Shown here piece after piece: positions 3,584-11,790 of a stretch of 37,629 nt of DNA (position 1 is the stretch's first letter; every line of letters starts with the position of its first letter). Source of the stretch: Oribacterium sp. P6A1. GTDB taxonomy: Bacteria; Bacillota; Clostridia; Lachnospirales; Lachnospiraceae. The stretch lies in NCBI RefSeq assembly GCF_000702885.1, contig NZ_JNKO01000025.1, positions 1 to 37,629 of the forward strand. The letters are read 5' to 3'. Below the pieces are notes generated by a model. It was not told where the DNA came from. It ran no database searches and worked only from the letters and a program-made list of their open reading frames with translations. A program made the position numbers and the translations under genes.

Positions 3584-3904
3584 ATGTACTACGATTTTTG
3601 GGTGGATTTACCTGATGCGCCAGGGAAATATATTTTTGAAAAAAGAGGCGGAACGACATATGTGAAGTACGAATACGATAGGATTTACGATCCTGAAAAA
3701 CAGATCACCTATCCGAAACGTGCAACAATCGGAAAGCTTTCGGATGACAGGATGATGATACAGCCAAATCAAACTTTTTTGACTTACATTTTTATCGAAA
3801 GAGGAGACTATCGTAACCAAAGGATCGGCGCAGGGAGAACTGCAAGCATAAAGGTGGAGTTTATAGAGAACGAAGATAAAAGCCTCTGTCTTTCGCAGCA
3901 GTAA
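3584..3904 (+). pseudogene. N-terminal fragment of an IS transposase
   Basis: The first 75 or so residues (GKYIFEKRGGTTYVKYEYDR, then YPKRATIGKLSDD and MIQPNQTFLTY) resemble the N-terminus of the IS1634/IS4-like DDE transposases that are common in Lachnospiraceae. The catalytic core is absent; after residue 75 the frame continues in unrelated sequence and stops at 106 residues. It is the 5' end of an insertion sequence whose remainder has been lost. The assignment is from memory of the family pattern. Confidence 0.5.
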
Positions 3905-3967
3905 AGAACTGTCATTTTTACGTAAATATAGTATAAATCTGGAAGGTATGTGTCAAAGGAAATGAAG

Positions 3968-5353
3968 ATGAGGATGATAAAGATCGATAATAAGACATTC
4001 TGTTTGCTTGTGTCCGCGCTCATGTTCCTTTTAACGTTTTTTGCCTTTGCAGTATCGGTGAAAAATAATATTTTCAGAGACTCAATGTTCATGTTAAGGA
4101 TCATCTATCTTATCAGTCTCGTTTTTTTGACAGTTTTTTCGGGATATATGTGCTTCAGGGATAGCTACCTTGGAGCAATGGGCTATTTTACCCTCTTTCT
4201 CTTTAATCTTTTTGTTGCGGTATTCTTTGCAGCTCTTACAGGCAGTGTTTACGGGATGCCGGGGCATAGCCACGCTATTGATGTACTTACAGGCTTAGAT
4301 TATTTTTTTTCCATGACCTGTTTCCTGACCTTATGGCTCTATCAGAAGAGATTTCTTGAGGAAACAGCCGTCACACGCATGGTTACCGTGCTTATCTCCA
4401 TTGGGGTTATCATTTATTCCGTTGCCATTCTCGTCAACAGATTCAGGCCGGTTCTTTTTCTTGTCACTGATGAGGGATTATATTCTGATGTCATTGAGGA
4501 TCATATCAGCATCCTTCTGGATTTATTCTGTCTGATATCATTGTCGGTTGCTACCTTGCTTTCCAAATTGAGCAGAACCCGGAAACTTTCTTTTATATGC
4601 TGTATCTTTTCTCCCGTACTATTTTCCATGCTGTCTCTGAATCTGGACGTTTTAAACAAGTATGTATCGGTGTGGGGTCTGGCGACAGTTGTGTTTATGA
4701 TGCCGGTCTGCCTTATGTTTTTTAACGTAAATGATGAACTTGAGAAGGATAATCTAAGATACGAAAAGGAACAGGTTCAACTTCAGGTCTCAGCCATGAT
4801 CTCGCAGATGCAGCCCCATTTCCTTTGTAATTCTTTGGCGGTCATCGAAGCCTTGTGTGAGGAAGATCCGGGGCTTGCTGCCAGAGCCATAGGTGAATTC
4901 TCGGAGTATCTGCGTGAGAATATTGATTTTGCCGATAAAAGCGAGCCTGTTTCTTTTTCGGAAGAATTGAATCACATTAAAACTTATGTATGGCTTGAAA
5001 AGCTTCGTTTTCAAAACAAACTGAACATTGAATTCGATATAAACTGCACTTCTTTCCTTGTTCCGGCGCTTTCGGTCCAGCCTATAGTTGAAAATGCAAT
5101 AAAACATGGTGTCTGTGAGAAAAAAGATGGAGGGACTGTGAGGATCGGTTCGTTTGAAACGGGTGAGCACTATATTGTATCGGTAGCTGACGACGGAACC
5201 GGATTTGATGCTGCAGTGCATGAGGATAACGGGAGAAAGCATCTTGGAATAGAGAATTCCCGATACCGGATCCGGGAAATGGTAGGTGGAAGTCTTACTA
5301 TCGAGAGCACTCCGGGCAAAGGAACAAAGGTAACCATAAGGATTCCCAAATAA
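3968..5353 (+). CDS. GHKL-type sensor histidine kinase with polytopic membrane domain
   Basis: The N-terminal 230 residues hold six or seven hydrophobic helices and no recognised ligand domain. The kinase core starts with QMQPHFLCNSL (phospho-acceptor His about residue 283), the LytS/YehU-type H-box, followed by QPIVENAIKHGV (N-box, about 369), DDGTGFD (about 407) and GKGTKVTI (about 449). It should autophosphorylate and pass phosphate to the regulator starting 17 nt downstream. The frame is open from GTG 3950, but GGAAGG is only 3 nt from that codon. ATG 3968, with AAGGA 7 nt upstream, is preferred; ATG 3962 and 3974 are alternatives. The signal is unknown. Confidence 0.85.
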   Translation: MRMIKIDNKTFCLLVSALMFLLTFFAFAVSVKNNIFRDSMFMLRIIYLISLVFLTVFSGYMCFRDSYLGAMGYFTLFLFNLFVAVFFAALTGSVYGMPGHSHAIDVLTGLDYFFSMTCFLTLWLYQKRFLEETAVTRMVTVLISIGVIIYSVAILVNRFRPVLFLVTDEGLYSDVIEDHISILLDLFCLISLSVATLLSKLSRTRKLSFICCIFSPVLFSMLSLNLDVLNKYVSVWGLATVVFMMPVCLMFFNVNDELEKDNLRYEKEQVQLQVSAMISQMQPHFLCNSLAVIEALCEEDPGLAARAIGEFSEYLRENIDFADKSEPVSFSEELNHIKTYVWLEKLRFQNKLNIEFDINCTSFLVPALSVQPIVENAIKHGVCEKKDGGTVRIGSFETGEHYIVSVADDGTGFDAAVHEDNGRKHLGIENSRYRIREMVGGSLTIESTPGKGTKVTIRIPK

Positions 5354-5369: not shown

Positions 5370-6146
5370 ATGAGAATACTTGTTGTAGAAGATGAACCCA
5401 TCCTGTTAAGGCAATTGACCAAACGTGTTCATGAGGCTCTGCCGGAAGCTGAGATAGTGGCTTTTGATAATGCCGATGATACGCTTGCTGCCTTACCTTT
5501 AGGGGTGATCAATATTGCATTTCTGGATATAGCGATAGGAGCCATGACAGGCGTTGACCTGGCAAGGTGCATTAAAACAGCATATCCCGGGTGCGACATA
5601 GTTTTTACCACCGGATACAGCGAGTACGCTCACAAAGCCTTCGAACTGGGAGCCAGTGACTATCTTATGAAGCCTGTTACGGTAGAAAAGATAGAGCATG
5701 CATTATCGCAGCTTCGGCATAATGCCATTAAAGGGAACATGGGGAAGGGATTGTCTATCCAGTGCTTTGGTGATTTTGAAGTGTTTTATAACAGAGAGCC
5801 TGTCGTATCCTTTACAAAACGTTCGAAAGAGCTTTTGGCCTATCTGATAAACAAGGCCGGTGTTCTCTGTCCGGTCACTGAAATCTGTAATGTCATATTC
5901 CGGGACAGTTCCGACTCTTATATTCGTGTCGCAAAGAAGGACCTCTTAAAGACATTATCAGACATAGGTGAGGCAGATATTCTGATCCAGGGATGGGGAG
6001 TGCTGGGAATCGACAGAAAAAAGGTACGGTGTGACTATTTTGACTATCTTGACGGAAAGCCGGGTGCCGTGAATCTTTATTATGGTGCTTATATGTCCCA
6101 GTATGACTGGGCGCATGGAAACAATCTGTTAAAACCAGGCAAATAA
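5370..6146 (+). CDS. Response regulator: receiver plus winged-helix (SARP/OmpR-like) output domain
   Basis: The receiver (about 1-118) has VVEDEP, the phosphorylated Asp53 in FLDIAIG, Thr/Gly in FTTGYSEY and Lys101 in LMKP. The C-terminal part (about 128-258, starting IQCFGDFEVFYN with FTKRSKELLAYLINKAG) is the short OmpR/SARP-like winged helix found with many Lachnospiraceae GHKL kinases, not the LytTR domain usually paired with LytS kinases. AAAGG at 5357-5361 is 8 nt before ATG. It is co-transcribed with the kinase and the operon ends at the strong stem at 6165. The amidohydrolases beyond that stem may be targets, but that is only proximity. Confidence 0.85.
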   Translation: MRILVVEDEPILLRQLTKRVHEALPEAEIVAFDNADDTLAALPLGVINIAFLDIAIGAMTGVDLARCIKTAYPGCDIVFTTGYSEYAHKAFELGASDYLMKPVTVEKIEHALSQLRHNAIKGNMGKGLSIQCFGDFEVFYNREPVVSFTKRSKELLAYLINKAGVLCPVTEICNVIFRDSSDSYIRVAKKDLLKTLSDIGEADILIQGWGVLGIDRKKVRCDYFDYLDGKPGAVNLYYGAYMSQYDWAHGNNLLKPGK

Positions 6147-6231: not shown

Positions 6232-6299
6232 TAACGGACTTTTAACATTTATTTAAGTACAATGACTGTATATTGTTTGGCTTAATTAAAGGAGGCTCT

Positions 6300-7970
6300 A
6301 TGAAGGCAGACATAATCATAAGAAACGCAAAAATCTTTACATCGAACACGAAAACCCTGCGGGCTACAGCCCTTGCGGTAAAGGATGGCAAATTTGTTTA
6401 TGTCGGCGATGATGCCGGTCTTTCGGATTATGAGGGCGAGGTGACGGATCTTGACGGGAAATTCATAATGCCGGGAATCATCGACAGCCATGTCCATGTT
6501 ACCATGCCCGTCGGATTTGAGTATAAGGATATGGGCGAGTATATCGTGTGTGACAGCAAAAAGGAAGCCCTTGGCTTTATAGCTGATCATATTAAGAACA
6601 ATCCGGGCAAGGAGAGCTACAATTTCCTTCTGGAGCGTGTTTTTCTACATGGTGAAGAGATTACAAAGGAAGATCTTGATGCTGTCTGTGCCGACAGTGA
6701 GATCATGATCTTAGAGGGTGAGGCACACAGCATATGGGCAAATTCAAAGCTTCTTAAGCGTCATGGCATTACGGATGATATCATCGATCCCGTGCCGGGA
6801 CTTAGTTACTATGTGCGTAAAGATGGACATATAACAGGAAATATATTTGAAGCGGCTGCGGAAACCCGCTTTCTGATCGATGGTGCGGAAAAACTGACAG
6901 ATGAACAGATAGATGCCGCCTTAAAGCGTTGGTTCGATTTTTCTGTCAATGCAGGGGTCGTGGGTGTCTTTGATGCCGGTATTCCGGAATGCAATGATTT
7001 TCATGAGAGGGTTTACAGACAATTAAAAAAATTTGATGAGGAAGGAGAGCTTCCCGTTTATATAGACGGCTGCTATGTGATCACACAGCCCCGCCAGGTG
7101 CCGGAGGCGATAAAAAAGCTTAAGAGCTTTAACAGTGAATTTAATACGAAACACCTTAAGGTGCATACCTTAAAGATTTTCAATGACGGTACCTTAAAGA
7201 TTGAAACGGCAGCACTTGTGACACCTTATGAAGATACCGGGGACAAGGGAACGGCTGCTTTCAATAAGGATCAGATCGCAGAGCTTCTTATTCAGCTTAA
7301 TGAGGCAGGACTTGACCTGCACCTGCACACTGTAGGTGAGGGCGCATCCCGTAATGTACTTGACGGTGTGGAGATGGCTAAGAAGGAGCTTGGGGATAAG
7401 TACCATGTGAAAGTCACCTGTGCACATCTTGAGATTCAGGATGACGCGGATATTGACCGTTTCGCAAAGTTAGGTGTTAACGCCAATTATACACCATGGT
7501 GGCATGCAGGAAACATGGGCGGAGATCCTTATAAGACGTGGTGCGAGCTGCTTGGTGAGGAGCGTGCGGGTAAGATGTACCGCTGTAAGTCGGTCTGGAA
7601 GACCGGTGCCAATGTTACATGGTCCAGCGATGATATCCACTATGGTGATTTTAACAACTGGAGTCCGTACCTTGGCATGGAGGTCGGCATGACAAGGTGG
7701 ATAAATGAGAAGACCAGAGCCGCCGAAACAGACTGGACCGTCAGAGCAAATCCTTCCGCCGATGAGCAAATGAGTATAGAAGAAATGATACTCGGATATA
7801 CGATAAACGGAGCAAAGCAGCTTGGTATAGAAGACAGCAAGGGCTCTATTGAAAAGGGTAAGGATGCTGATTTCCTTATTTTTGATACTGACCTGCTTAC
7901 TGCCAAGCATGAGGGCTTCAGCTATAACAAACCGACGGATGTGTATTTTGCGGGAAAGAAAGTAAATTAA
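6300..7970 (+). CDS. YtcJ-like metal-dependent amidohydrolase (Amidohydro_3), first copy
   Basis: The 556-residue protein is a cytosolic hydrolase of the amidohydrolase superfamily, YtcJ group; substrates for this group are mostly unknown. The metal-site motifs are in order: IDSHVHV (His64, His66), LHLHTVGEG (His341, His343), CAHLEI (His376) and WSSDDIHYG (Asp about 444). The N- and C-terminal segments (AKIFTS, then GSIEKGKDADFLIFDTD) build the usual beta-sandwich. ATG 6300 with AAAGGAGG just upstream is preferred over TTG 6273. It is followed after 21 nt by a second member of the same superfamily, so the two probably act on related substrates. The C-terminus closely resembles the broken copy at 11640. 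Confidence 0.88.
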   Translation: MKADIIIRNAKIFTSNTKTLRATALAVKDGKFVYVGDDAGLSDYEGEVTDLDGKFIMPGIIDSHVHVTMPVGFEYKDMGEYIVCDSKKEALGFIADHIKNNPGKESYNFLLERVFLHGEEITKEDLDAVCADSEIMILEGEAHSIWANSKLLKRHGITDDIIDPVPGLSYYVRKDGHITGNIFEAAAETRFLIDGAEKLTDEQIDAALKRWFDFSVNAGVVGVFDAGIPECNDFHERVYRQLKKFDEEGELPVYIDGCYVITQPRQVPEAIKKLKSFNSEFNTKHLKVHTLKIFNDGTLKIETAALVTPYEDTGDKGTAAFNKDQIAELLIQLNEAGLDLHLHTVGEGASRNVLDGVEMAKKELGDKYHVKVTCAHLEIQDDADIDRFAKLGVNANYTPWWHAGNMGGDPYKTWCELLGEERAGKMYRCKSVWKTGANVTWSSDDIHYGDFNNWSPYLGMEVGMTRWINEKTRAAETDWTVRANPSADEQMSIEEMILGYTINGAKQLGIEDSKGSIEKGKDADFLIFDTDLLTAKHEGFSYNKPTDVYFAGKKVN

Positions 7971-7991
7971 CAATAAGAGGAGATACAGATA

Positions 7992-9641
7992 ATGAAAGCA
8001 AATAAGGTCATCTACGGTAATATCTACACAGTTGATAAGAAAAAGCCCAAGGCTGCGGCACTTGCGATTTCTGACGGAAAGTTCGTCTATGTGGGAGACG
8101 AAGAAGGCGTGAAGGAATATATTGACAAGGATACGGAGGAGATCCGGTATGATAAAGGTATCATTCTTCCGGGATTTGGAGAGGGACACGGTCATATCGC
8201 ACCCGGAGGAACGGAAGCGCTTTTCTTTGTACATCTAAGTCCCATGGGTACCTTACAGGAACATCTTGCTGCTATAAAGAAGTTCATCCGGGAGCGTCCG
8301 GAGCTGGATGTTATTCAGGGCTCAGGCTTCATACCCACACCGGATATGGGACCGAACGGTCCCACTGCGGATCTGCTTAATGGTTTGACAGACAAACCGA
8401 TCGTTCTTGCGGATATAGGTCATCATTCTTATTGGGTGAATCATGCCGCAATGGATCGTCTGGGAATCGACAAAAACACGTCGGATATAAGTGACGGAAT
8501 AATCACCCGGGATGATCAGGGGAATCCCACCGGTTATTTCCGTGAGGGTGCTATGGATCTGCTAAAGGAGCTTACCGTGTTCTCGGTTGAGCAGTATAAG
8601 GAGGGATTCCTGCACTATCAGGAGGAATATCTGGCTCATGGAGAGACCCTGATCCTTGAACCTATCATCAACTGGGATACTACAGACAATGCCGCACTTG
8701 CCTGCCATGAGCTTGATATGGAAGGAAAGCTTAAAATGCATGTCTATGCCGCTTATCAGGTATTTCAGGCGGAAGGTCATGATACTATGGCAGAGATAGA
8801 ACATGCGGCAGAGCTTAGAAAGAAGACCAAGGGGCGCATGTTCGAGCTTAACAATATCAAGATACAGATAGACGGTACGATGCCGGGGACACCTTCGACA
8901 GCATATATGAAGCAGCCTTACACAGATCCGTGGTCTGTCGAGCATCAGCATCATGGGCAGCTTCGCTTTGACATGGAAACCCTTATTAAAATATACAAAA
9001 AATCTCATGAGCTGGGATTTACGGTACACGCTCATGCCATAGGAGACGGGGCACTCTGCATGGCTCTGGATGCCATAGAGAAGGCATTGGAGGAGACAGG
9101 ACCTCACGATTACAGGGATGCCATAACTCATCTTCAGGTGGTAGACAGGGAGGATATCCCCCGTATGGCTAAACTAAATGTTATAGCTTCTACAGATCCT
9201 CACTGGTTTGATTTCGAGCCGGAATATTTTCAGATGATGGTCGCTGTTCTTGGCGAAGAACGTGCTGAAAATCAGCTTCCGATGAAGGCATTCTTTGATG
9301 CCGGAGTTACGGTAACCTCTGCCAGTGATTATCCTGTTACAAATCCGGCCTATCCGCTTACAGGCATACAGAAAGGTGTGATTCGTCAGCTTCCCGGACG
9401 TCCGGACACACTGCATAATGCGAGCGAGCGCGTAACGATAGAGCAGATGATCGAAGCGACCACCATTAATGAGGCTTATCAGATGCTTTGTGATGACAGG
9501 CTGGGCAGTATTACTGTCGGGAAGGAAGCAGATTTGGTGGTACTTGGTGATGATATTACCAAGTGCGATTCGGAGCATATCCAGGATTCGCCCGTGCTTG
9601 GAACCATGGTGGGCGGAGAGTGGGTCTACACTCACGCTTAA
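7992..9641 (+). CDS. YtcJ-like metal-dependent amidohydrolase (Amidohydro_3), second copy
   Basis: This 549-residue paralogue has LPGFGEGHGHI (His66, His68) as the first metal pair, VHAHAIGDGA as the second, THLQVVD for the next His, and SASDYPV with the terminal Asp. All metal positions are kept. Glu-Gly precedes the first His where most relatives have Asp-Ser, a mild deviation. AGAGGAG at 7976-7982 lies at normal distance from the ATG. It is the middle gene of a three-gene cassette; the next gene starts 8 nt after its stop. Substrate and pathway are unknown; related enzymes cleave exocyclic amides and similar bonds. Confidence 0.88.
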   Translation: MKANKVIYGNIYTVDKKKPKAAALAISDGKFVYVGDEEGVKEYIDKDTEEIRYDKGIILPGFGEGHGHIAPGGTEALFFVHLSPMGTLQEHLAAIKKFIRERPELDVIQGSGFIPTPDMGPNGPTADLLNGLTDKPIVLADIGHHSYWVNHAAMDRLGIDKNTSDISDGIITRDDQGNPTGYFREGAMDLLKELTVFSVEQYKEGFLHYQEEYLAHGETLILEPIINWDTTDNAALACHELDMEGKLKMHVYAAYQVFQAEGHDTMAEIEHAAELRKKTKGRMFELNNIKIQIDGTMPGTPSTAYMKQPYTDPWSVEHQHHGQLRFDMETLIKIYKKSHELGFTVHAHAIGDGALCMALDAIEKALEETGPHDYRDAITHLQVVDREDIPRMAKLNVIASTDPHWFDFEPEYFQMMVAVLGEERAENQLPMKAFFDAGVTVTSASDYPVTNPAYPLTGIQKGVIRQLPGRPDTLHNASERVTIEQMIEATTINEAYQMLCDDRLGSITVGKEADLVVLGDDITKCDSEHIQDSPVLGTMVGGEWVYTHA

Positions 9642-9649
9642 AAAAAATC

Positions 9650-11620
9650 ATGAAGAAGTTATTTACAATCGATGATTTTATGGTGGCTTTCATCTCGGCG
9701 CTGGGCTATGGCTTTGGCTATACGATTCCGATGTATCTGGGCTGGACGCAGCCTGCGTGCATAGCGGTCTGCTTTGCCCTCGGAATTACGCTGGAGGAGC
9801 TCATCAGCAGGATCGTTTTCAGCAAGACCGTCCAGCAAAAAACGGTCAACCGGGTATTCACTTATGTGGCGATCCTGCTTATTTTCCTGATCGCCGAGTT
9901 TGTTTCGAGGCATTTGCTGGGCACGTCCCTGATAGAAGACCTGGAGGAAGAGTTTGCGTGGGTTGTGGGTCTTCCCATTGTCGGCTTTGTGGTGAATCTG
10001 TGCATACGTGGATATCGTGTCAGAAAGATTTGCAAGCTTTACGGGGACGGAAGCGAGGGCTATGTGTTCGACGTGACGGACAGGGACATCGAGGAAGTGA
10101 ATCAGCGGAACCGGGCTGTTCACGGTGAATATGATGTCGAGTGTGCGGTCAGGACGCGAACCGGCATCTACGTCGGGGAGAAGTACAAGGAGACACGAAT
10201 CTTTTGGGGGATTCCCTACGCAAAGTCTCCGGTAGGCGAACTGAGATGGAAGGCACCCGAGCCGCTCCCTGCGTCGGAGACGGTGTTTGAGGCCAAGAAC
10301 TTCGGCGCCTCGGCCATACAGGTGGAGCATAAGGGCTCGATCATCAGGCATCACCGGCAGAGCGAGGACTGCCTGTACCTGAATATAGCCACCGGGGACG
10401 AAAAGACGGAAGCGAAAAAGCCGGTGCTTGTGCTGTTCCACCACGGAGATTTTACCTACGGCGGCGCGGTCGATCCGCTGCTGTACGGTGAGGATTATGT
10501 AAATGCGAATCAGGATGTAGTGCTTGTCAGTTTTAATTATCGCCTCGGTATCTTCGGGTTCATTGATTTTTCTGAGGTTCCCGGCGGGGAGGCCTGCCCG
10601 GACACCCTGAACCTCGGGCTGCTGGATCAAATCGCGGCACTGAAGTGGATCAGGGAAAACATCGGAGCCTTCGGGGGTGATCCCGAGCGGATCACGGTGC
10701 TGGGCTTCGAGTCCGGCGCGACCTGCATCTGCCTGCTGGCCGCCAGCGAGCAGGTGAGGGGTCTGTTCCGGAGGGCCTTCGTGTTCGACGGCAGCCCGGA
10801 GTCTGCCTGTGATACGCCGGATGCCTCCAGAGCCCTGGCAAAAGCATTGTTGAAAGAAACAAACACTTCGACGATGGCGGAGCTTTTGCACCTGGATACG
10901 GAAGCTCTAAAAGACGCTGTGCAAAGGCTTTGGATGAGCATGTGCACACCGACCTGTGACGGAAAACTGATCCCTAAGCAGGTGTATGAGGCATATCGAA
11001 ACGGAGCCGCTTCGGGTATCGAGTTTATCGTCGGCATTACCGGCGGGGGAATGCAGGTGATCCGATCCTCCGTCGGCAGTAAGAACTACAAGGACGCGGT
11101 AAAGGCGGCTGTGGACGACCTTCAGGGCGATATAGACGGTTCCGTCGCCGAGGCGATGCGGGCGTATATTAAGGCTCAGACATTGACTTCATCCGAGCTT
11201 GAGGCGAAATCAGAGCTGTACGGGCAATGGACTGCGTTGGGTATTTATCGTGTTGCGGCAAAGCTGTCGCAGGGTGGAAACAAGGTGCATCTGATGTACT
11301 GGGACGAAAAGGCACTGATCGAGAATCTGGGTTCGGGTACCGCAGACGTTCTAGCAACATTGCTCGGGAACAGCGAAGCACTACAGATGTATGGCAGCGT
11401 AATGAACGCGGATCTGTCCGAGATGCTCCGGGCTTTGTTGCTGAAATTTGTCAGCGGAGATGCCCTGCAGCTTTATCGCAACGAGATTTCGGGCTTCGAC
11501 GGTCTCGACTGGGAGGCGTTTCCACAGGCACTTATCGTTGAAGACGGGAAATTAGCGTGCGATACGATTGAAGACAGAATAACAGAGGTCAAAGGATTGT
11601 TGGACTATATGTTGAAATGA
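9650..11620 (+). CDS. Membrane-anchored carboxylesterase-fold protein, probably a pseudoenzyme
   Basis: Residues about 8-122 of 656 contain four hydrophobic helices; from about 160 on the protein follows type-B carboxylesterases (GIYVGEKYKETRIFWGIPYA, SEDCLYLNIATGD, VSFNYRLGIFGF, GLLDQIAALKWIRENIGAFG). Ungapped comparison with the family consensus shows the nucleophile Ser as Glu354 (GFESG where GESAG is normal), the oxyanion HGGG as His264-His-Gly-Asp267, the acid Glu as Gly467 (GITGGGM), and the catalytic His as Thr564 (GSGTADV). The fold core is kept, so a binding or scaffold role, as in neuroligins, is plausible. ATG 9650 has no clear ribosome binding site, so translation may be coupled to the upstream gene. 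GC is higher than next door (42 of 60 bases at 10681-10740 against 25 of 60 at 8101-8160), a sign of separate origin. Confidence 0.8.
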   Translation: MKKLFTIDDFMVAFISALGYGFGYTIPMYLGWTQPACIAVCFALGITLEELISRIVFSKTVQQKTVNRVFTYVAILLIFLIAEFVSRHLLGTSLIEDLEEEFAWVVGLPIVGFVVNLCIRGYRVRKICKLYGDGSEGYVFDVTDRDIEEVNQRNRAVHGEYDVECAVRTRTGIYVGEKYKETRIFWGIPYAKSPVGELRWKAPEPLPASETVFEAKNFGASAIQVEHKGSIIRHHRQSEDCLYLNIATGDEKTEAKKPVLVLFHHGDFTYGGAVDPLLYGEDYVNANQDVVLVSFNYRLGIFGFIDFSEVPGGEACPDTLNLGLLDQIAALKWIRENIGAFGGDPERITVLGFESGATCICLLAASEQVRGLFRRAFVFDGSPESACDTPDASRALAKALLKETNTSTMAELLHLDTEALKDAVQRLWMSMCTPTCDGKLIPKQVYEAYRNGAASGIEFIVGITGGGMQVIRSSVGSKNYKDAVKAAVDDLQGDIDGSVAEAMRAYIKAQTLTSSELEAKSELYGQWTALGIYRVAAKLSQGGNKVHLMYWDEKALIENLGSGTADVLATLLGNSEALQMYGSVMNADLSEMLRALLLKFVSGDALQLYRNEISGFDGLDWEAFPQALIVEDGKLACDTIEDRITEVKGLLDYMLK

Positions 11621-11639
11621 CGCGGACTTTCTTCTTATC

Positions 11640-11790
11640 TCCTTAACTAATGAGAGGATGAGCATTGAAGAGATGCTTTTGGGCTTTACGATCAATGGCG
11701 CAAAGCAGCTTGGTATTGTGGATAAAAAGGGTTCTATCACGGCCGGTAAGGATGCTGATTATCTGGTATTCGACAAAGACCTGCTTACCA
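11640..11790 (+). pseudogene. C-terminal remnant of a third amidohydrolase
   Basis: The frame reads NERMSIEEMLLGFTINGAKQ and GSITAGKDADYLVFDKDLLT, nearly the same as residues about 490-540 of the amidohydrolase at 6300. Everything before it is missing and the last residues are replaced by unrelated hydrophobic sequence. It shows that another copy once stood here, which the esterase-like gene now separates from the intact pair. Confidence 0.75.

Follow-up and report, generated by a model that had tools for sequence, protein, structure and literature searches.

Dead or modified alpha/beta hydrolases serve in plants as intracellular small-molecule receptors, as in the hormone receptors of the GID1 type, which belong to a different branch of the superfamily from the protein described here. 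An esterase fold without a catalytic triad is also found in neuroligin-like adhesion proteins, and the examples of non-catalytic esterase folds given in the portion of a review considered here (PMC5943944), namely neuroligins and thyroglobulin, are animal proteins. For the insect esterase E3 (alpha-esterase-7), the portion of the source considered (PMC3812244) describes a Gly137Asp substitution in the oxyanion hole through which organophosphate hydrolysis was gained. No dead bacterial carboxylesterase was seen among the papers listed by searches of the open literature, a result that constitutes weak evidence of absence given their partial coverage.

Here we analyze a gene of Oribacterium sp. 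P6A1, located at positions 9650..11620 on the forward strand of a 37,629-nucleotide stretch of DNA (contig NZ_JNKO01000025.1, hereafter the window; all features below lie on its forward strand), which encodes a membrane-anchored pseudo-carboxylesterase of 656 amino acids starting at the ATG at 9650. This pseudoesterase has the whole fold in common with the bacterial type-B carboxylesterases Est55 (2ogs) and pNB esterase (1qe3), from which it differs in the replacement of the catalytic Ser, His and acid, in its altered oxyanion hole and in the addition of four membrane helices. It resembles the neuroligin-like proteins in combining an esterase fold with the absence of the triad. Neuroligins, however, are animal ectodomain proteins and the thyroglobulin C-terminal domain is part of a hormone precursor, whereas the pseudoesterase is bacterial, predicted to be cytosolic and anchored through N-terminal helices. 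As in the E3 variant, an Asp is found in its oxyanion hole (Gly137 of E3 occupies what we take to be the position equivalent to D267), but E3 retains its catalytic Ser.

Results

An esterase fold with a substituted active site

The original prediction, based on the DNA letters and their translations, described a four-helix anchor followed by a type-B carboxylesterase fold with Glu354, His-His-Gly-Asp, Gly467 and Thr564 at the active-site positions, and this description was confirmed. The four membrane helices (residues 7-29, 34-56, 65-90 and 95-131; 9668..10042) precede an esterase fold spanning approximately residues 161-656 (10130..11617). The Pfam COesterase family (PF00135) matched residues 167-577 with an E-value of 2e-71, indicating homology to the type-B carboxylesterase fold family across the catalytic domain. 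In a phmmer search, the top PDB match was Est55 (1.5e-53), and both motifs aligned without gaps, HGGAF of Est55 against HHGDF and GESAG against GFESG; this alignment ends at residue 506, and the position of the catalytic His was taken from a multiple alignment. Comparison of the predicted structure with the PDB matched the whole fold, the nearest bacterial structures being 25-29% identical to the query, and the model is of low confidence at residues 269-277, just after D267. In the query protein, the oxyanion-hole motif HGG[AG] is replaced by H264-H265-G266-D267 (10439..10450), the nucleophile elbow GxSxG by G-F-E-S-G (residues 352-356; 10703..10717), the acid by Gly467 (11048..11050) and the catalytic His by Thr564 (11339..11341). 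With its GFESG elbow, Gly467 and Thr564, the query lacks the nucleophile, acid and base expected of an enzyme of the type-B carboxylesterase family.

Active-site states were tabulated across homologs, the named loci having been collected with search patterns that avoided the active-site motifs. The first set comprised 34 clade rows and 35 relatives (33 distinct genes, since two genes of genome G014 were doubled via the overlapping loci L065 and L070), divided by identity to the query and independently of active-site residues. At position 354, the clade rows of this set had E (26), D (7) or G (1), and all 35 relatives had S; position 564 was T in 24 and S in 9 of 33 clade rows versus H in 34 of 34 relatives; and position 267 was D in 31, G in 2 and S in 1 of the clade rows versus A, G or S in the relatives. 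Four new members brought the final set to 38 clade sequences, in which identical sequences were collapsed to one count and which include three pairs above 95% identity. L034, L036, L037, L039 and L041, with at most 350 aligned residues in one frame, were excluded from the state tables, and only the N-terminal piece of the split copy L032/L047/L063 and the C-terminal piece of L033 were tabulated.

The original prediction regarded homologs keeping the GxSxG serine as evidence against a pseudoenzyme, and no clade sequence has Ser at position 354 (0/38), which is instead E in 29, D in 8 and G in 1, and hence acidic in 37 of 38. Position 564 is T in 25 and S in 12 of 37 sequences, with no instance of His (0/37). 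In the altered oxyanion hole, D267 is present in 35 sequences (G in 2, S in 1; n=38) and H264 in 37 of 38, and position 235 is His in all 38. The exceptions at 354 and 267 are L015 (Gly354), L016 and L028 (Gly267) and L033 (Ser267). At the acid position, 467, most of the clade keeps the catalytic Glu (25 of 37 sequences), with Q in 5, G in 5 and V in 2; the query protein has lost it. A small chance had been reserved for an altered active site at Ser355, but of the 38 sequences 27 have Ser at this position, 10 have Ala and one has Asp, which makes such a site unlikely. A triad rebuilt from neighboring residues around Ser355 was rejected on account of the Ala and Asp states. Carboxylesterases encoded in the same loci as clade members (L002, L004, L011, L013, L025, L028, L035 and L037) retain an intact G[QE]SAG motif, Glu and His, the one of L002 having been entered in the table as the identical L062.

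Distribution, probable single origin and purifying selection

A scan of a species-genome collection led to 40 loci, 37 of which contain a pseudoesterase match by tblastn. The carriers are mostly metagenome-assembled genomes (MAGs) labelled Lachnospiraceae, Clostridiales or other Firmicutes, many of them from ruminants. Three strains of Oribacterium are also among the carriers, as are a few MAGs that bear the labels Eggerthellaceae, Synergistaceae, Spirochaetaceae and Chloroflexi. In L016 and L028, the two labelled Eggerthellaceae, the gene and its flanks all have a GC content of 61-65%, which makes transfer between phyla, as opposed to misbinning, likely in these two cases. The clade is narrow: an alignment profile applied at E ≤1e-120 to 295 sampled genomes of the order detected members in 7, and in a sample of 391 genomes of the class it detected members in 3, both counts including the genome analyzed here. 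The pseudoesterase gene of the window has a GC content of 54.4%, against 42-48% in the adjoining genes, and that of Oribacterium sp. WCC10 (locus L002) is likewise GC-rich (54.2 versus 44.0), a contrast that suggests recent horizontal gain of the gene.

When a tree was computed from the esterase part, the non-Ser rows, 34 in number, fell on one side of a single branch (SH-aLRT 100, stem of 1.36 changes per column). The tree requires one change between Ser and non-Ser and eight changes for all states at position 354, where 33 of the 34 clade rows are acidic; E, D and G have thus interchanged repeatedly at a site that nonetheless stays acidic outside a single row. Built by a quick method, the tree has some long outgroup branches and does not by itself distinguish loss from gain. 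We infer a single loss of the catalytic residues, placed at the clade's base, because Ser is the norm in the rest of the family.

Selection was assessed by the Nei-Gojobori method on six sequences of the closest sub-clade, in which the near-identical pairs, query/L002 and L004/L005, contain too few changes to be usable. For the diverged pairs among the query, L003, L004 and L031, dN/dS ranged from 0.14 to 0.19 (about 0.17) for the esterase domain and from 0.12 to 0.30 for the membrane part, demonstrating purifying selection on the non-catalytic esterase domain in this sub-clade. Together with the absence of Ser at position 354, this bears out the proposal that the protein, as judged from its sequence, is very probably a pseudoenzyme. 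Most clade members have long open frames. Split or frameshifted copies occur in L032 (genome G010), L033, L034 and L037, and a decayed second copy is present in G016, the genome that holds the L002 contig; unless these broken copies are assembly errors, some strains may dispense with the pseudoesterase. The decayed copy (G016:C39:50170-52042) lies on a contig that also contains carboxylesterases, Amidohydro_3 genes and c4, a membrane protein family described below.

Membrane anchor and predicted topology

The four-helix N-terminal anchor is common to the clade. Mean net charges across the family are +2.0 at the N-terminus, +3.6 in loop 2, -3.2 in loop 3 and +3.9 after helix 4, and because this positive-inside pattern runs through the family, both termini of the helical region are predicted to be inside and the esterase domain in all likelihood lies on the cytosolic face of the membrane. 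The neuroligin-like membrane receptor originally envisaged is, in that form, at odds with the predicted topology. A profile of residues 1-156 found matches in 7 of 195 related genomes, and these corresponded to pseudoesterases, remnants in G016 and, at E 8e-4, one borderline match in a further genome; among these 195 genomes, the four-helix anchor was not seen on any carboxylesterase that has its triad intact.

Genomic context

In the window, the pseudoesterase gene is preceded by two genes for Amidohydro_3 metallohydrolases (PF07969), one of 549 amino acids (7992..9641) ending 8 bases upstream of it and one of 565 amino acids (6273..7970) ending 21 bases before the former. Further upstream are a response regulator of 258 amino acids (5370..6146), composed of a receiver and a C-terminal part without Pfam match, and a LytS-type histidine kinase (3950..5353; PF06580) that is predicted to cross the membrane with seven helices and lacks a large external domain. 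A remnant of the two-helix membrane protein c4 (3770..3889; E 9.8e-8) is fused to the start of another reading frame, forming the C-terminal part of ORF 3584-3904. The start of this ORF resembles what we take to be a transposase N-terminus, which suggests that an insertion broke c4. Downstream of the pseudoesterase lies a 140-base remnant of a third Amidohydro_3 gene (11649..11788), 99% identical to L002 12413-12552, itself part of an Amidohydro_3 fragment. Oribacterium sp. WCC10 shares 6275-11649 at 98.8% DNA identity and has downstream a block that is absent from the window, made up of an extra Amidohydro_3 gene, a fragment of an Amidohydro_3 gene and a carboxylesterase whose triad is intact.

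The genome analyzed here (G000; assembly 97.6% complete) yielded a single COesterase-fold gene, the pseudoesterase, and two Amidohydro_3 genes (E ≤1e-20), these three being the consecutive genes described above. An active carboxylesterase partner within this genome was rejected, none having been found in the assembly. The pseudoesterase had been proposed as a partner of the two amidohydrolases, and in this genome the proposal stands insofar as the only Amidohydro_3 pair adjoins the only COesterase-fold gene found. Across homologs it holds in part.

Neighbors were counted over 38 loci, a set different from the 38 sequences of the state tables, by tblastn with known family members, which replaced crude gene calls; the counts take in fragments (the Amidohydro_3 remnant of the window and, for carboxylesterases, those of L006 and L023) as well as genes that run off a contig, and several loci are truncated. 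Some long ORFs beside pseudoesterases, such as L024:6232-8004, look like antisense artefacts. Amidohydro_3 was found in 16 of these loci, a further carboxylesterase in 10 of them, a response regulator in 12 (including one remnant, in L002) and c4 in 9. Within 5 kb, the corresponding numbers were 16, 10, 8 and 8, with a kinase in 6 (including a weak 27% match in L013), and the nearby carboxylesterases have an intact Ser motif in 8 of their 10 loci. Of the 20 loci whose upstream sequence extends over 4 kb or more, 9 have Amidohydro_3 within 5 kb and 7 have none of the five recurrent families, and no neighbor family is constant across the clade. In G016, three of five Amidohydro_3 genes adjoin the pseudoesterase, whereas G004, G006 and G014 encode 11, 12 and 10 Amidohydro_3 genes, none of them on the pseudoesterase contig; no Amidohydro_3 gene was found in G010, which is 73% complete and in which the pseudoesterase is split. 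The amidohydrolase link is thus real in the operon of the window and is not a rule of the clade.

The response regulators near pseudoesterases are of two types, one with HTH_3 and a receiver (L003 and L012 scanned) and one with a receiver and a C-terminal part without Pfam match (window and L031 scanned). Relatives of the window regulator occur beside pseudoesterases in L031, where the gene order is kinase, pseudoesterase, regulator, and in L032, where the regulator follows the split pseudoesterase. The regulator at L030:4254-4853, which adjoins a LytS-type kinase, has an N-terminal HTH and a C-terminal receiver, the reverse of the usual order in response regulators. The HTH-receiver regulator is rare, with near-full-model matches in 2 of 98 related genomes (E ≤1e-25); one copy, in G006, is flanked on either side by a carboxylesterase that keeps its Ser. 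Each of the four kinases examined is predicted to have 7-8 helices and lacks a large external sensor, and the three neighboring enzymes examined have no predicted membrane helix.

In 7 of 38 loci the c4 gene is found upstream, no more than 150 bases from the pseudoesterase gene, and in one (L026) downstream; in L003, L004 and L005 the two genes overlap by 4 bases at the pseudoesterase start. The c4 gene also occurs near carboxylesterases outside the clade, in G004 and G016. The c4 proteins (e.g. L003:7261-8004) form a two-helix membrane family of approximately 200-255 amino acids that recurs in amidohydrolase and carboxylesterase clusters. A structure model of c4 (pLDDT 72.7) had no match in the PDB at E ≤0.001, two c4 proteins had no Pfam family up to E 0.1, a third had one weak match to BacA below the cut-off (E 0.053), and the one protein scanned against NCBIfam had no family up to E 0.01.

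Discussion

The best reading of these data is that the pseudoesterase would be a cytosolic, membrane-tethered binding or sensor subunit tied to esterase and amidohydrolase metabolism, the sensor or adaptor role itself being a plausible but tentative assignment. On this reading, the protein would not hydrolyze esters by a Ser-His-acid mechanism and would have kept the old pocket, with the conserved E/D354, D267, D566, H235 and T/S564 in and around the former active site. The pocket would bind either a metabolite with an ester or amide group or another protein, and the anchor would relay the bound state to adjoining membrane proteins, most plausibly the LytS-type histidine kinase, c4 or both. 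This relay would tune clusters of amidohydrolases and ordinary carboxylesterases. The regulators, kinases and c4 genes that recur near the pseudoesterase speak for it; the lack of any constant neighbor, the presence of a kinase within 5 kb in no more than 6 of 38 loci and the broken copies speak against it, and the conserved acidic pocket might as well serve a new kind of catalysis.

Several alternatives account for part of these observations. The pseudoesterase could have no sensing role and act as a scaffold or localizer that holds cytosolic amidohydrolases at the membrane and, in the loci that have them, ordinary carboxylesterases as well. Such a role agrees with the occurrence of Amidohydro_3 and other carboxylesterases in 16 and 10 of 38 loci within 5 kb (fragments included), with the adjacency of the three such genes of G000, the sole ones found there, and with the lack of predicted membrane helices in the three neighboring enzymes. 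We nonetheless consider it unlikely, as 7 of 20 well-covered loci have no recurrent family, Amidohydro_3 is never on the pseudoesterase contig in G004, G006 and G014, and a pure scaffold has no need of conserved pocket residues. An allosteric subunit, pairing with an active carboxylesterase through the usual dimer interface of the family, would fit the carboxylesterase genes or fragments of those 10 loci, 8 of them with an intact Ser motif; it seems very improbable in general, and the absence of another COesterase-fold gene excludes it here unless one lies in an assembly gap. Decay of an esterase drifting after loss of function is scarcely credible: the broken copies in a few genomes and the c4 and Amidohydro_3 remnants of the window point that way, but the non-Ser sequences lie on a single branch, most members have long open frames, and the low dN/dS of the closest sub-clade contradicts it.

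A re-invented active site merits separate attention, in which Glu/Asp354 and Asp267, with His235 and Asp566, would form a carboxylate pair or metal site for a different reaction. The acidic state of position 354 in 37 of 38 sequences and Asp267 in 35 of 38 would be expected of such a site, and in E3 the Gly-to-Asp change in the oxyanion hole orients water for attack, according to the portion of the source considered (PMC3812244). The pair is not invariant, however, being broken by Gly354 in L015, Gly267 in L016 and L028 and Ser267 in L033; E3 still uses its own Ser; and the segment following D267 is poorly modelled. The conserved carboxylates leave some scope for new chemistry, but a new reaction is improbable in our estimation. 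In a more speculative variant, to which we attach little weight, the carboxylate site (Glu/Asp354 and Asp267, perhaps with Asp566 and His235) would bind a metal or catalyze a new reaction at the cytosolic face, and the product or ligand would be read by the adjacent histidine kinase. If true, this carboxylate rewrite would have turned an esterase into a membrane signal receptor.

What is new here is a bacterial, predicted cytosolic, membrane-anchored clade of non-catalytic esterases, animal counterparts being already known. Since Pfam does assign these proteins to the esterase family, similarity-based annotation would tend to label them carboxylesterases, which is very unlikely to be true. With one apparent loss event, an added anchor, evidence of purifying selection and some gene clusters that also contain ordinary relatives, the clade would offer a clean case of the transition from an enzyme to a binding or signalling protein.
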